Of a stretch of 24,368 bases of DNA, positions 7,303-19,935 are shown piece by piece. The stretch is from a virus. Numbering within the stretch: the stretch's first letter is position 1; every line of letters begins with the position of its first letter. Where the stretch lies: IMG/VR virus record IMGVR_UViG_3300022226_000020, positions 1-24,368 of that record; one strand, 5' to 3'. A model generated the notes under the pieces. That model was not told the DNA's origin and searched no databases. It saw only the letters and a list, made by a program, of their open reading frames with translations. The translations under genes and the position numbers were made by a program.

Positions 7303-7537
7303 TATCTGCGTCGTGCTATATAGTAAACTGTAAAACGGCGACGATTTATCCAATTTTTTGGATCCGGCTCATATATTTCCAATTTACAGTTTACAAAGAT
7401 CGCATGAGATCGTAAGTCTCTGCGTCGTTTCTTGGGATCGCGAGTCAAAATGGGTTTGTATTTTGTGAATTATTGCTGTCGCCAAAAAAACAGTTTACTA
7501 TTGGGCGCCGCAGAGTTGCGGCTTAGGAAAGGATAAG
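7303..7537. promoter_or_regulatory. Intergenic control region with operator-like repeats
   Basis: A 235-base gap between lysis and replication genes. It contains three copies of a GTAAACTGTAAA-type motif: direct at 7323-7334, inverted at 7383-7394 and inverted (ACAGTTTACTAT) at 7490-7501. It also has a 6-bp hairpin ATCCAA-TTTT-TTGGAT (7348-7363). Two 14-mers, GCTATATAGTAAAC (7315-7328) and ATTTACAGTTTACA (7382-7395), recur exactly in the non-coding region near 19000. No credible gene is present. The role is likely control of the replication operon. Confidence 0.7.
7473..7501 (+). promoter_or_regulatory. Candidate promoter of the replication operon with overlapping operator
   Basis: TTGCTG (7473-7478), 17 nt, then TACTAT (7496-7501). 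The -10 lies inside the repeat copy ACAGTTTACTAT (7490-7501), so a protein bound to that repeat would block or modulate this promoter. The downstream SD (AGGAAAGG) precedes the helicase ATG. Confidence 0.45.
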
Positions 7538-9037
7538 ATGAGTACTGAAAGGCAAATCCAAAAAGAAGATTATTTGTGGAAGACAGAGCCATATGCCCAC
7601 CAGCGCGAAGTGTTCTTACGATCACGTGAACTGGAGGAGTTTGCTTTGCTTATGGGGATGGGCACTGGAAAAACGAAAGTGACTATTGACACCGCGGCCT
7701 ACAATTACGCCAAAGGCAATATCACCTGTTTGATAGTAATCGCACCCAATGGTGTTCACAGGAACTGGGTGACCAGAGAAATTCCGACCCACATGCCAGA
7801 TTGGACTAATTGCCGAGCAGCTATCTGGTCAAGTTATATGCGCAAAAAAGAAGGCCAGCTCGTAGAGTCATTATTTGATCCTGACTTCAAAGGACTGCGA
7901 GTGATATCTATGAATATTGAAGCTTTTAAAGATAGCACCACCTGCAAGTCGGCGAAAATAGTTCGTAAACTATGTAACTCTTTCAGAGTGATGATGGTTG
8001 TTGATGAATCATCCAAAATAAAAACACCGGGCGCCAAAAGAACAAAATCTCTTATCGTGCTCGGCAGGCAGGCGGTGATGCGAAGGATACTCACGGGTAC
8101 TCCAGTCACCAATGGCCCACTTGACATATTTTCGCAATTCAGGTTTCTTGGTAATGCGCTGGGGTTCGATAATTTTTATTCCTTCAAGCATTATTTTGCT
8201 GAATGGGAACAGGAACGAAATTTCAGGACTGGGGCGCGATACGAAGTTTGTAAAGGCTATCGAAATATTGATGAGCTAACCGCAATCATTGATGCCCACG
8301 GTTACCGGATAACGAAAGAAGAGTGTTTGGATCTTCCTGATAAAATATACCAAACCAGATATGTTGAATTAACTGCCAAACAGCGCAAGGCATACAATGA
8401 CATTGCTGAAAGATCGTTGATCGAATTGGCTGGTGGTGAAGAAATGTCAGTAGCCAATGTCCTGACAAAAGCCTTGCGACTTCAGCAGGTGGTAGGCGGA
8501 TTTTTGCCAAAAGAAGAATTTGCTCCGGCGCTTCCTATTGAAGATAAGAACCCCAGAATTGATTGTTTGCTTGATTTGCTCGAGGAAACTGAAGGGAAAA
8601 TCATTATATGGGCTCGGTTCCGGGCAGAGTTGGCCGCTATCGAAGATGCTATCAGGAAAGCTTATGGCAAAGAAACGGTGGTCAGTTATCATGGTGGAGT
8701 AAATAAAGAAGAACGAGAGGTTAACATGGATACCTTTCAGGATAAGGATAGCCCTGTTCGATTCTTTGTTGGCCAACCGCATAGCGGCGGATACGGTCTC
8801 ACCCTCCACGCAGCGACAACCGTCGTCTACTTCTCCAATGATTTTAGTCTGGAGGCTCGTCTACAGAGTGAGGATAGAGCACATCGAATTGGGCAGCACC
8901 ATCCAGTATTGTATGTGGACATTGAATGCCTAGGAACCATAGATACAAAGATTATCGAGGCCTTACACAGCAAGAAAAGTTTGGCCGATCTCATTACGCG
9001 AGATTCAGTTAGGCTATTACTTGCAAGGGCAGCCTAA
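7538..9037 (+). CDS. SNF2-family DNA helicase/translocase (SF2)
   Basis: An ATP-driven DNA translocase, probably acting in phage replication or recombination. The 499-residue protein carries the ordered SF2/SNF2 motifs: the Q-like region YAHQREV (residues 19-25), Walker A GMGTGKT (40-46), motif II DESSKIK (156-162, with DESS in place of DEAH), motif III LTGTP (185-189), a helicase C domain with IIWARF, and motif VI QSEDRAHRIGQ (443-453). This is the minimal two-lobe SNF2 core without accessory domains, the usual phage form. It is the first gene after a control region and has a clear SD. Conserved DNA-binding partners follow in the same operon. Confidence 0.93.
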   Translation: MSTERQIQKEDYLWKTEPYAHQREVFLRSRELEEFALLMGMGTGKTKVTIDTAAYNYAKGNITCLIVIAPNGVHRNWVTREIPTHMPDWTNCRAAIWSSYMRKKEGQLVESLFDPDFKGLRVISMNIEAFKDSTTCKSAKIVRKLCNSFRVMMVVDESSKIKTPGAKRTKSLIVLGRQAVMRRILTGTPVTNGPLDIFSQFRFLGNALGFDNFYSFKHYFAEWEQERNFRTGARYEVCKGYRNIDELTAIIDAHGYRITKEECLDLPDKIYQTRYVELTAKQRKAYNDIAERSLIELAGGEEMSVANVLTKALRLQQVVGGFLPKEEFAPALPIEDKNPRIDCLLDLLEETEGKIIIWARFRAELAAIEDAIRKAYGKETVVSYHGGVNKEEREVNMDTFQDKDSPVRFFVGQPHSGGYGLTLHAATTVVYFSNDFSLEARLQSEDRAHRIGQHHPVLYVDIECLGTIDTKIIEALHSKKSLADLITRDSVRLLLARAA

Positions 9038-16811: not shown

Positions 16812-17092
16812 AACAAATTGCGGTGACTGAGTCCGCCGAAACGGAGCTAATGCACTGGACGATAACAATTTTCGCGTTGTGTGAAGACGGGACAATCTGG
16901 CGGCGGGAAAACGAAACCGAAAAATGGATATTTATCGAAGGACCGCCGGAAGGGAAACCAGATTATCAGGAACCTACTCTTGAAGAAATGGCGGAACATC
17001 TTAGAAACAAGGGCGGGAATCAGACGTTCGTGGGACGCGGGCACCATTTAGCGCCGGGGAAACCCCGGGATGAAAAGGTAAATAAATTATGA
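16799..17092 (+). CDS. Hypothetical protein, conserved small phage gene
   Basis: A 97-residue protein with N-terminal beta-strands: TELMHWTITIFALCEDGTIWRR and KWIFIEGPPEGKPDY resemble the blade of a beta-propeller-like repeat, too short for a full propeller. The C-terminal half is charged and helical (TLEEMAEHLRNKGGN). It starts inside the nuclease gene (13-base overlap) and its stop overlaps the next ATG (ATGA). No function is recognised. Confidence 0.6.
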   Translation: MRKVKQIAVTESAETELMHWTITIFALCEDGTIWRRENETEKWIFIEGPPEGKPDYQEPTLEEMAEHLRNKGGNQTFVGRGHHLAPGKPRDEKVNKL

Positions 17093-17448
17093 AACTGTAT
17101 TCATACGAACACTTTGCGATTCAACGTCGGCGAAAAGGTAAATCACAAGATGATCTCGCGCACGAAGCCGGAGTTACTCAAGGGTTCATTGCCCAGATCG
17201 AAAACGGGCTGCGGAGCATACCGGAAGATATCCAGAAGATTTATCCTAAGAAGCTGACATCTGTCAAGCGTCATGAAATGTTCTGGCTATTGCTGCGCCG
17301 GGCAGGATTGAGGCATGAAGAAGCGAAAAAGCTTTTTAGTGTTACCGCCCGAGAATTTAACGACTGGATGCGGGGCGATACTAGGATTCCAGACTGGGCT
17401 TTTGATTACGCAGTAAAATGCGAGCCGCGGAACCGTAAAAAAGTTTAA
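17089..17448 (+). CDS. XRE-type DNA-binding regulator with a second HTH segment
   Basis: A 119-residue protein. Residues about 14-42 form a classical XRE/Cro helix-turn-helix (KSQDDLAHEAGVTQGFIAQIENG). A second region at about 70-102 (AGLRHEEAKKLFSVTAREFNDWMRGDTRIPD) reads as another helix-turn-helix with the 'W..G...IP' ending seen in such domains. It is thus like two DNA-binding domains in tandem, without an oligomerisation or protease domain. It is the last gene of the accessory operon, directly before the three early-type promoters, a good position for a switch protein. Its operators are unknown; the repeats near 7300-7500 and 19000 are candidates. Confidence 0.78.
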   Translation: MKLYSYEHFAIQRRRKGKSQDDLAHEAGVTQGFIAQIENGLRSIPEDIQKIYPKKLTSVKRHEMFWLLLRRAGLRHEEAKKLFSVTAREFNDWMRGDTRIPDWAFDYAVKCEPRNRKKV

Positions 17449-17778: not shown

Positions 17779-17806
17779 TTGACAGTTCTGGCAATAGTGC
17801 TATAAT
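17779..17806 (+). promoter_or_regulatory. Early-type promoter P2 (consensus -35, extended -10)
   Basis: Perfect TTGACA (17779-17784), 16 nt, perfect TATAAT (17801-17806) with TGC before the -10, and an A-tract (AAAAAAAC) just upstream. It should be very strong. Confidence 0.92.
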
Positions 17807-18267: not shown

Positions 18268-18295
18268 TTGACAGTTTTGGTAATAGTGCTATAAT
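18268..18295 (+). promoter_or_regulatory. Early-type promoter P3 (consensus, extended -10)
   Basis: TTGACA (18268-18273), 16 nt, TATAAT (18290-18295) with TGC before it. The spacer differs from P2 at only two visible positions (TTCTGGC versus TTTTGGT), and the leader AAAGGAAACAACGAAATG is the same as behind P2. Confidence 0.92.
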
Positions 18296-18333: not shown

Positions 18334-18771
18334 ATGAAAAACACTAGCAACCACGCAGCAGCAGCAAAAATGATCCGCGCAGAACTGAAGAAGAACGGCA
18401 TCAAAGCCAGCGTTCGCGCCAAGTCTTACAGCGGCGGCAGCAGCATCACCGTCGACATTCTGGAAGACATTACCCCGGCAGCGGTTAAAGAAATAAGCGC
18501 CTTTTGTGATCGTTTTGAAATGGGAAGCTTTAACGGCATGGAAGATATTTACGAGTACAACAATCGCAACGACGATCTTCCGCAAGTCAAATTTGTATTC
18601 GTCAACATGGATTACAGCGACGAGTTAAGAGCCGAAGCCCGCGCTTATGTCGAAGCTAACTATGCCGCAGACGATGAATATAGGCTTCAGGAAGAAACCA
18701 GAAACGTGATCAACGGCTACTGGGGGAACTTCTGGATCAATCGCAAGCCCCGCGTCAAGGTCGCGGCATAA
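18334..18771 (+). CDS. LPD29-domain small protein (early cassette)
   Basis: A 145-residue protein. Residues about 6-65 match the large polyvalent protein-associated domain LPD29: AAAKMIRAELKKNGIKASVRAKSYSGGSSITVDILED, i.e. helix, strand, the YSGGSSI hairpin and a strand. The rest (about 66-145) is acidic and helical, with SDELRAEARAYVEANY. LPD domains accompany multi-domain proteins that phages and conjugative elements deliver into or express early in the host; a stand-alone copy next to small early genes is in keeping with that. The precise activity of LPD29 is unknown. Strong promoter P3, matching leader and a terminator form an isolated unit. Confidence 0.75.
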   Translation: MKNTSNHAAAAKMIRAELKKNGIKASVRAKSYSGGSSITVDILEDITPAAVKEISAFCDRFEMGSFNGMEDIYEYNNRNDDLPQVKFVFVNMDYSDELRAEARAYVEANYAADDEYRLQEETRNVINGYWGNFWINRKPRVKVAA

Positions 18772-18782
18772 GACAAAACGAA

Positions 18783-18808
18783 CCCGGCGGAACATTGCCG
18801 GGTTTTTT
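18783..18808 (+). terminator. Rho-independent terminator after the LPD29 gene
   Basis: Stem CCCGGC (18783-18788) and GCCGGG (18797-18802) with an 8-nt loop, followed by six T residues. It ends the early cassettes before the non-coding region. Confidence 0.85.
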
Positions 18809-18862
18809 CTGGTTCCTGTAAAGATTATCGGAAACTTTTCAGTTCTGTTAATAAAAAAGTTT

Positions 18863-18978
18863 TCGTTTTGTTCTCGTTTTGTCGCTAACTGGTGACATTT
18901 CGAGGTTCTCGTTTTGTTCTCGTTTTCTGTTTAAAAGCTGTGGATAAGCCGTATTTTTTCTCGTTTTGTTCTCGTTTT
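18863..18978 (+). repeat. Three phased TCGTTTTGTTCTCGTTTT repeats
   Basis: The 18-mer TCGTTTTGTTCTCGTTTT occurs at 18863-18880, 18909-18926 and 18961-18978. Each holds two TCGTTTT half-sites 11 nt apart, one helical turn. An inverted partial copy (GAACAAAACGAGAAA) is at 19233-19247. Copy spacing is 46 and 52 nt. Confidence 0.9.
18939..18947 (-). promoter_or_regulatory. Perfect DnaA box (TTATCCACA on the minus strand)
   Basis: TGTGGATAA on the + strand is the exact complement of the consensus DnaA box TTATCCACA. It lies between the second and third TCGTTTT repeats. Confidence 0.7.
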
Positions 18979-19062
18979 TCGCTATATAGTAAACGGCGGA
19001 TTTGACAAAAAATCAGTTGAAGGTGTGTTTGAAACATAACAGCGTTTACATTTACAGTTTAC

Positions 19063-19098
19063 ATTTTTGTCAAATGTTGACAATTGTTTGACAAAAAT
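19063..19098. repeat. Perfect 12-bp inverted repeat with TTTGACA sites
   Basis: ATTTTTGTCAAA (19063-19074) and TTTGACAAAAAT (19087-19098) are perfect complements separated by 12 nt that contain another TTGACA (19077-19082). TTTGACA also occurs at 19001-19007 and TGTCAAA at 19098-19104. It could be a paired operator or iteron array, or could form a cruciform. Confidence 0.85.
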
Positions 19099-19293
19099 GT
19101 CAAACTTTCAAGAATCATGCCAGTTTTTGTGCAGAATATTAGCAAGGCTCTTAGAGGGCGCGCGCGCGCAGAAAGTCGATTTTGGTTTTCGAAAATTTCC
19201 TGCCGAAAATCCTGTTTACTTTATATGCGATTGAACAAAACGAGAAACTAGATTACTATCTGCGCAAGCGTGAAGCGAACAGCGGGAAGCCCG

Positions 19294-19935
19294 ATGGCAA
19301 AAGATGAAATTAAAATCGAAGACGATCTTCTAGACGACGAACTATTTTCTGTTCCAGATTTTACTATGCCGGAATTCCGCTGGACGGTTAAGCGTCAGGA
19401 ATTCGTTTATCATGTGGCCCGGCATGGTAACGGGTATCAAGCTGCACGCGATGCAGGCATGGCGGACAAGTCTTCCGAATGGCTGCTGAAACAACAAGCG
19501 GTCCGCGACGCGGTCCAAGAAGAAATCGCGAACCAGCTTGCGGCGTCGAAGGAATCGGAAGAGTCTGTTATCGCGCGCTGGGCAATGTGGGCTAAAGCGG
19601 ACGTTTGCAGTATTTTTAACGCAGACTGGACGCTGAAGTCTAAGGAGCAAATACCAGACGCGCAGCGCAAATGCATCAAAAAAATTAAAGTGACTCATTC
19701 TGCGCACGGTCGAAACATTGAAGTTGAAATGTTCGACGCGCATAAGGCTAACAATGATCTAGCGCAAATGATGGGATTATTAGGAAAGGGCGACAATGAC
19801 ACAACGCCGCCAGAAGAAACAGCGAAGCAACTTCAATCGGCTTTACAGGAAATGCGAATTTTAGATGGCGACTCCGTTCCAGTCGAAACGCCTTCGGGGT
19901 CTGGCAGCGAAGAAACAGGTAGGCGTCTTAACTAG
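19294..19935 (+). CDS. terS: Terminase small subunit (TerS)
   Basis: Recognises phage DNA for packaging and hands it to the large subunit. From ATG 19294 it is 213 residues. The acidic N-terminus is followed by RQEFVYHVARHGNGYQAARDAGMADKSSEWLLKQQAVRDAVQEE (about residues 34-77), the helix-turn-helix DNA-binding signature of the Terminase_2 family. Helical segments (AKADVCSIFNAD and on) and an acidic, Ser/Gly-rich tail follow. GGGAAG (19284-19289) supports ATG 19294; an in-frame GTG at 19270 would add eight residues without a ribosome binding site. It directly overlaps the TerL gene. Confidence 0.88.
   Translation: MAKDEIKIEDDLLDDELFSVPDFTMPEFRWTVKRQEFVYHVARHGNGYQAARDAGMADKSSEWLLKQQAVRDAVQEEIANQLAASKESEESVIARWAMWAKADVCSIFNADWTLKSKEQIPDAQRKCIKKIKVTHSAHGRNIEVEMFDAHKANNDLAQMMGLLGKGDNDTTPPEETAKQLQSALQEMRILDGDSVPVETPSGSGSEETGRRLN

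Follow-up and report, generated by a model that had tools for sequence, protein, structure and literature searches.

Phased direct repeats upstream of a phage terminase operon are more likely protein-binding switches than a replication origin

The DNA upstream of the terminase genes in an environmental virus record contains 11-bp-phased direct repeats, and these are more likely protein-binding switches that control packaging genes than an origin of replication. The window analyzed here is the whole 24,368-base IMG/VR record, which is probably a fragment of a tailed-phage genome. Judged from its sequence, the gap between the early genes and the terminase genes may be an operator cluster for the terminase/late operon with host LexA as the single likeliest binder, a combined reading to which we give slightly less than an even chance. 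The claim that the gap is an operator cluster and not an origin is stronger than the claim for LexA.

Every gene identified in the window lies on the plus strand. Tail genes, lysis genes, and genes for a dNMP kinase, an SNF2 helicase, an AEP-type primase, and a UvrD-type helicase are followed by small early genes, an XRE-type regulator, an LPD29-domain protein, and then TerS, TerL, and the portal protein. The intrinsic terminator of the LPD29-domain gene and TerS, whose start was taken as the ATG at 19294, enclose a 488-nt gap that is the site of the repeats, a DnaA box, and a 12-bp inverted repeat. All of the letters reported for these three elements in a preliminary description of the locus are present. 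Its limits of 18863 to 19098 are correct as far as they go but leave out an inverted 15-nt copy of the repeat, which it missed together with an inverted GTAAAC/GTTTAC pair (18985/19214).

Table 1. Features of the TerS gap and related elements in the window
Feature	Position	Strand	Remarks
Second GTAAAC/GTTTAC module	7318..7502	+	Upstream of SNF2-type helicase gene at 7538; without 11-bp repeats
XRE-type regulator	17089-17448		Two HTH
LPD29-domain ORF	18334-18771		Early gene
Intrinsic terminator of LPD29-domain ORF	18780..18805	+	11-pair stem, then T run
Direct repeat 1, GTTTTCGTTTTGTTCTCGTTTT	18859..18880	+	First half-site GTTT, one mismatch to GTTC-N7-GTTC
Direct repeat 2, GTTCTCGTTTTGTTCTCGTTTT	18905..18926	+	Full GTTC-N7-GTTC
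DnaA box, TTATCCACA	18939..18947	-	Perfect, single copy; not conserved in relatives
Direct repeat 3, TTTCTCGTTTTGTTCTCGTTTT	18957..18978	+	First half-site TTTC
Left arm motif of inverted GTAAAC/GTTTAC pair, TATAGTAAAC	18985..18994	+	
12-bp inverted repeat, left arm, ATTTGACAAAAA	19000..19011	+	
12-bp inverted repeat, right arm, TTTTTGTCAAAT	19064..19075	+	Within TTGTCAA/TTGACA palindrome cluster 19058-19103
Promoter-like site TTGACA-N16-AAGAAT	19088..19115	+	-35 within palindrome TTTGACAAAAATGTCAAA; consensus match only
Right arm motif of inverted GTAAAC/GTTTAC pair	19214..19223	-	
Fourth repeat copy, inverted, 15 nt, TTTCTCGTTTTGTTC	19233..19247	-	
Terminase small subunit (TerS)	19294..19935	+	First gene downstream of repeats; Pfam Terminase_2; PHROG 51

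The 22-nt direct repeats are 91 to 100% identical, follow one another at spacings of 46 and 52 nt, and contain copies of TCGTTTTGTTCTCGTTTT at 18863, 18909, and 18961; their half-sites sit 11 nt apart, as had been described. An exact 18-mer is present three times in the gap, whereas none of 2,000 dinucleotide shuffles reached this (longest repeat, 14 nt), and the repeats are far beyond chance. In the window, the repeats are not followed by a strong sigma-70 promoter. The TerS gap also contains an alternating GC tract, GCGCGCGCGC (19157-19170), and similar tracts are found in the gap of a relative (L007) and upstream of the helicase of another (G008).

Relatives were gathered by TerL and TerS searches. 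These comprise a contig nearly identical to the window (L004/L005/L012) and the more distant L006, L007, L034, L110, L111, and phage MW202621. L110 is part of the 64-kb record G008, which carries much of the window gene set at roughly 40 to 85% amino acid identity and has a TerS 50% identical to that of the window. The TerS gap of G008 holds four copies of KTTCTCGTTTTGTTCTC, two of them with the full GTTC-N7-GTTC form, in diverged surroundings. Recurrence in the same gap of a relative at this level of TerS identity speaks for a genuine cis element that looks like a protein site, and since the trailing TCGTTTT of the window repeats is not kept in G008, the conserved unit is the 17-mer. A fifth exact copy of KTTCTCGTTTTGTTCTC in G008 falls within signal-peptide codons and was set aside.

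The word is absent from L006, L007, L034, and L111. Three of these (L006, L034, and L111) have other repeats in the TerS gap, and several relatives seem to carry a repeat family of their own at this place; the TerL sequences of L006 and L034 are as close to the window as that of G008, yet both lack the repeats. For example, six CTTACAGACTGAAGCAGA-like repeats lie upstream of a GTTTAC cluster in L034 (3607-3800). A search of 754 bacterial genomes gave only one TerL relative above the cut, an alphaproteobacterial one at 56 to 60%, which would fit a host of that class; the region upstream of its TerS has no such repeat sites.

Other differences and likenesses between the window and G008 lie outside the gap. 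The two genomes differ by roughly 13 kb between the helicase and XRE genes, where the window has no polymerase or clamp and G008 (locus L135, 9697-12904) encodes a family A-like DNA polymerase and a sliding-clamp-like protein, as read from translations. Two perfect consensus sigma-70 promoters (TTGACA-N16-TATAAT with TG) stand ahead of small early genes in the window (17779-17806 and 18268-18295). Their counterparts in L110 have a 20-nt palindrome, AGTGCTATAATTATAACACT, over the -10, which is likely a repressor operator.

A second conserved element accompanies the repeats. In the TerS gap of the window and of its relatives, TATAGTAAAC-like motifs form an inverted pair around 130 to 340 nt of sequence, and in the window the left motif and repeat 3 form a longer imperfect inverted repeat with 19212-19251. 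A GTAAAC/GTTTAC module also stands ahead of the helicase operon in both the window and G008, but only the copy at TerS is accompanied by the 11-bp repeats. In L034, L006, and the helicase module of the window, the right arm could serve as the -10 of TTGC[AT]G-N16-18-TACTAT. The element may be a phage promoter module that serves two operons. The helicase module of the window (7303-7537) is closer to the TerS-upstream modules of L006 and L034 than to the window's own TerS module.

The LexA (SOS) box of Alphaproteobacteria is GTTC-N7-GTTC (PMC3323433, PMC12700426, PMC9578287), and GTTC-TCGTTTT-GTTC, complete in some of the repeats of the window and G008, has this form. Like these boxes, the gap sites are GTTC-type direct repeats with an 11-nt pitch and a T-rich spacer end, and they lie in a promoter region between genes, here between the terminator and terS. 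We found GTTCTYNTTTTGTTCT in 85 of 250 alphaproteobacterial genomes compared to 8 with a reversed control pattern (about tenfold), and in 35 of 299 Pseudomonadota genomes compared to 5 with the reversed pattern, the class of the scanned genomes being taken from genome-set grouping and repair-gene context. In the Pseudomonadota scan, it precedes imuA (four times), dnaE (twice), uvrA, ruvC, and Pol IV-type, O6-methylguanine methyltransferase (ogt-type), ribonucleotide reductase, and FAN1-type genes. Enrichment over the control together with these repair-gene neighbors shows that GTTCTYNTTTTGTTCT is a genuine SOS box form. We had considered the invariant spacer of the phage sites as a disproof of LexA; this objection was weakened by the status of GTTCTYNTTTTGTTCT and was kept only in part.

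The phage sites also depart from genomic LexA boxes. The full GTTC-N7-GTTC is present in one of four window sites and two of four G008 sites, the others having one mismatch in the first half, so that the first half-site is degenerate in 5/8 sites. Alphaproteobacterial genomes show no clear excess of the TTTC variant (29 sites versus about 20 in the control). All eight sites have the spacer TCGTTTT, found in only one genomic box among those listed; TCG is the rarest genomic spacer, yet it is the sole spacer in the window phage and G008, which therefore do not show the host-type SOS-box spacer, a feature that is not strictly defining. In Caulobacter, about 97% of SOS promoters have a single box (PMC12700426), but here several copies share one gap. 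A phage precedent for adjacent canonical and degenerate LexA-type sites in a control region is promoter P1 of Bacillus phage GIL01, which is LexA controlled through dinBox1/dinBox1b (PMC4551915). However, GIL01 has a Gram-positive box type, and its P1 keeps lysogeny and works with the phage protein gp7 (PMC4551915), whereas the gene nearest to the window repeats is terS. Because of the degenerate first halves, the lack of clear TTTC enrichment, and the rarity of TCG in genomic boxes, LexA is only a candidate, although as a putative binder it is the most likely single one.

The word extends well beyond the window phage group. The exact 17-mer is present in at least 119 IMG/VR stretches. Among the 78 sites scored in newly fetched viral loci, 62 lie outside ORFs of 100 amino acids or more, although such ORFs make up 84% of the bases in these loci. 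The viral sites have 40 different downstream sequences, and 25 have a TTGAC[AT]..TAT promoter-like site downstream. Many carriers are marine contigs of T4-like type. There the word comes after a stop codon or hairpin and ahead of a TTGAC..TAT promoter-like site, in most cases 22 to 46 nt upstream of the -35 and not over it. Several of these contigs (e.g., L144, L151, and L159) have the 17-mer before promoter-like sites at several different genes, with 22, 37, 43, and 46 nt as the commonest distances to the -35. T4-type phages possess mobile promoter cassettes known as PeSLs, and the T4-like contigs similarly hold the word with a gene end or hairpin on one side and a sigma-70-like promoter on the other; the window phage, in contrast, is not T4-like, and the likeness seen here is one of placement. 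The closest match to the peptidase of the T4-like contigs, at 36%, is the peptidase of Pelagibacter phage Mosig. In Mosig, GTTCTTGTTTTGTTC lies upstream of this gene, the one that bears the site in related contigs. Other phages of Alphaproteobacteria also carry the form: HTVC008M has GTTCTCGTTTTGTTCTA between genes, beside a promoter-like site, and Rhizobium phage RHph_N28_2 has GTTCTCCTTTTGTTCTC between genes.

The same 11-bp word forms an array in a bacterium, Pseudomonas carbonaria, where about ten tandem units of GTTCTCGTTTT (L024, 5305-5436) lie downstream of trfA, between the trfA (PF07042) replicon and a mobC-like mobilization gene. The exact 18-mer has six matches in GTDB genomes, which is about chance except for this array. 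A reading of the units as TrfA iterons was ruled out by separate TrfA-style 22-bp repeats, ATACCGTAGCGGTGGCTAGAAA, directly after trfA, and related trfA plasmids also carry iterons of this 22-bp kind. The 11-bp array is therefore something else, and could be a centromere-like or operator array.

Several other explanations for the repeats were weighed. A phage-coded or other host regulator might read the exact word KTTCTCGTTTTGTTCTC at operon boundaries in place of LexA, which we consider rather unlikely but keep as a serious alternative. The window phage has a candidate in its two-HTH XRE-type protein, conserved in G008 (41%), but L006 has an XRE-type protein and no repeats, and no such regulator was shown to be common to the T4-like contigs and the window phage. 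Neither TerS nor the XRE-type protein co-varied clearly with repeat type in an alignment whose out-of-frame L111 row was ignored. The TCG spacer fits such a regulator, being invariant in the two phages, hardly used by host SOS boxes, and found in 75 of 135 GTTC-N7-GTTC matches of the fetched viral loci, a dominance partly due to a search that used the TCG word and had the frequency of other spacers elsewhere outside its reach. Against this, Mosig has another spacer before the orthologous gene, as LexA recognition would allow. The tandem array in P. carbonaria also favors a different factor, since the LexA box of this gammaproteobacterium should differ; that of P. aeruginosa is CTGN2TN7CAG (PMC9578287). 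Sites 22 to 46 nt upstream of a -35, as in the T4-like contigs, would be unusual for a repressor, which speaks against the LexA reading. A related view, possible but doubtful, is that KTTCTCGTTTTGTTCTC is an undescribed operon-boundary element of unrelated environmental phage lineages (the window phage group and the T4-like marine phages) for a TCG-demanding factor, derived from, mimicking, or competing with the LexA box, in which case the phage copies would be switches or a sink for the SOS repressor.

Location directly upstream of TerS in both the window phage and G008 raises the alternative of a packaging site (cos/pac) bound by TerS, as in phages with such a site before or inside terS. The absence of the word at the helicase operon would fit one packaging site per genome, and other relatives have different repeats at the same place. 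However, unrelated phages also carry the word, and nothing akin to the window terminase, portal, or primase lies close to it there; contig ends do not cluster convincingly at the repeats (a slight excess of contig starts just upstream of TerS was judged too weak to mark packaging ends), and the GTAAAC/GTTTAC pair cannot be a packaging site because it is duplicated ahead of the helicase operon; we regard packaging as improbable. An RNA-level signal in the terminase transcript, for example a leader or a processing element, is extremely unlikely: the region 18840-19300 folds more stably than shuffles (z = -3.06), mainly through its inverted repeats, but DNA-level inverted repeats yield the same fold, and the 11-bp units are direct repeats. 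The preliminary description had proposed an origin or switch, with an origin recruiting host DnaA plus a phage-coded factor. Iteron plasmid origins of the pSC101 and RK2 (TrfA) type have short direct repeats, an inverted partial copy, and a nearby DnaA box, and the gap resembles these with its three 22-nt repeats, inverted partial copy, and one perfect DnaA box, the sole exact copy in the window. The box arises in only 6 of 2,000 shuffles of the gap and is improbable for a gap of this size, but with 0.2 copies expected across the whole window, a lone box is only weakly beyond chance. TTATCCACA is absent from the whole 64-kb G008 record, where the repeats are kept, and from the L034 record, and no copy lies close to the terminase genes in the other relatives. 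Neither the window nor G008 shows a change of GC skew at the locus, and no match to a TrfA-type initiator was found in G000, G008, G001, or G004, the window itself being a fragment. Iterons of the TrfA type, where examined, are built from a 22-bp unit of different sequence and form a separate array in P. carbonaria, and the phage word is spread between the operons of other, unrelated phages. An origin is therefore quite improbable and the DnaA box most likely incidental; the "switch" half of the proposal held, through recurrence of the repeats in the G008 gap.

Under the preferred reading, the gap would control transcription where the early genes give way to a terminase-led late operon, and the 11-bp-phased repeats would be direct-repeat operators, each a pair of GTTC-type half-sites separated by about one turn of the helix. 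With a dimeric repressor on several operators, the terminase/late operon would be held back until the repressor is removed. The predicted binder is the LexA of an alphaproteobacterial host, and if this is so, the late genes would be freed when the SOS response is induced or when replicating phage DNA titrates LexA away. What we infer here is the class of the host, binding by LexA, repression, and the time at which the late genes are released.

Whichever factor binds, one DnaA box beside repeats does not make an origin. Should the repeats prove to be LexA-type operators, the packaging genes of this phage group would be tied directly to the host DNA damage response, and the word could be used to trace such control by sequence in many uncultured alphaproteobacterial phages. 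Should a factor other than LexA bind, the word may mark a widespread phage regulator that has so far gone unnoticed.
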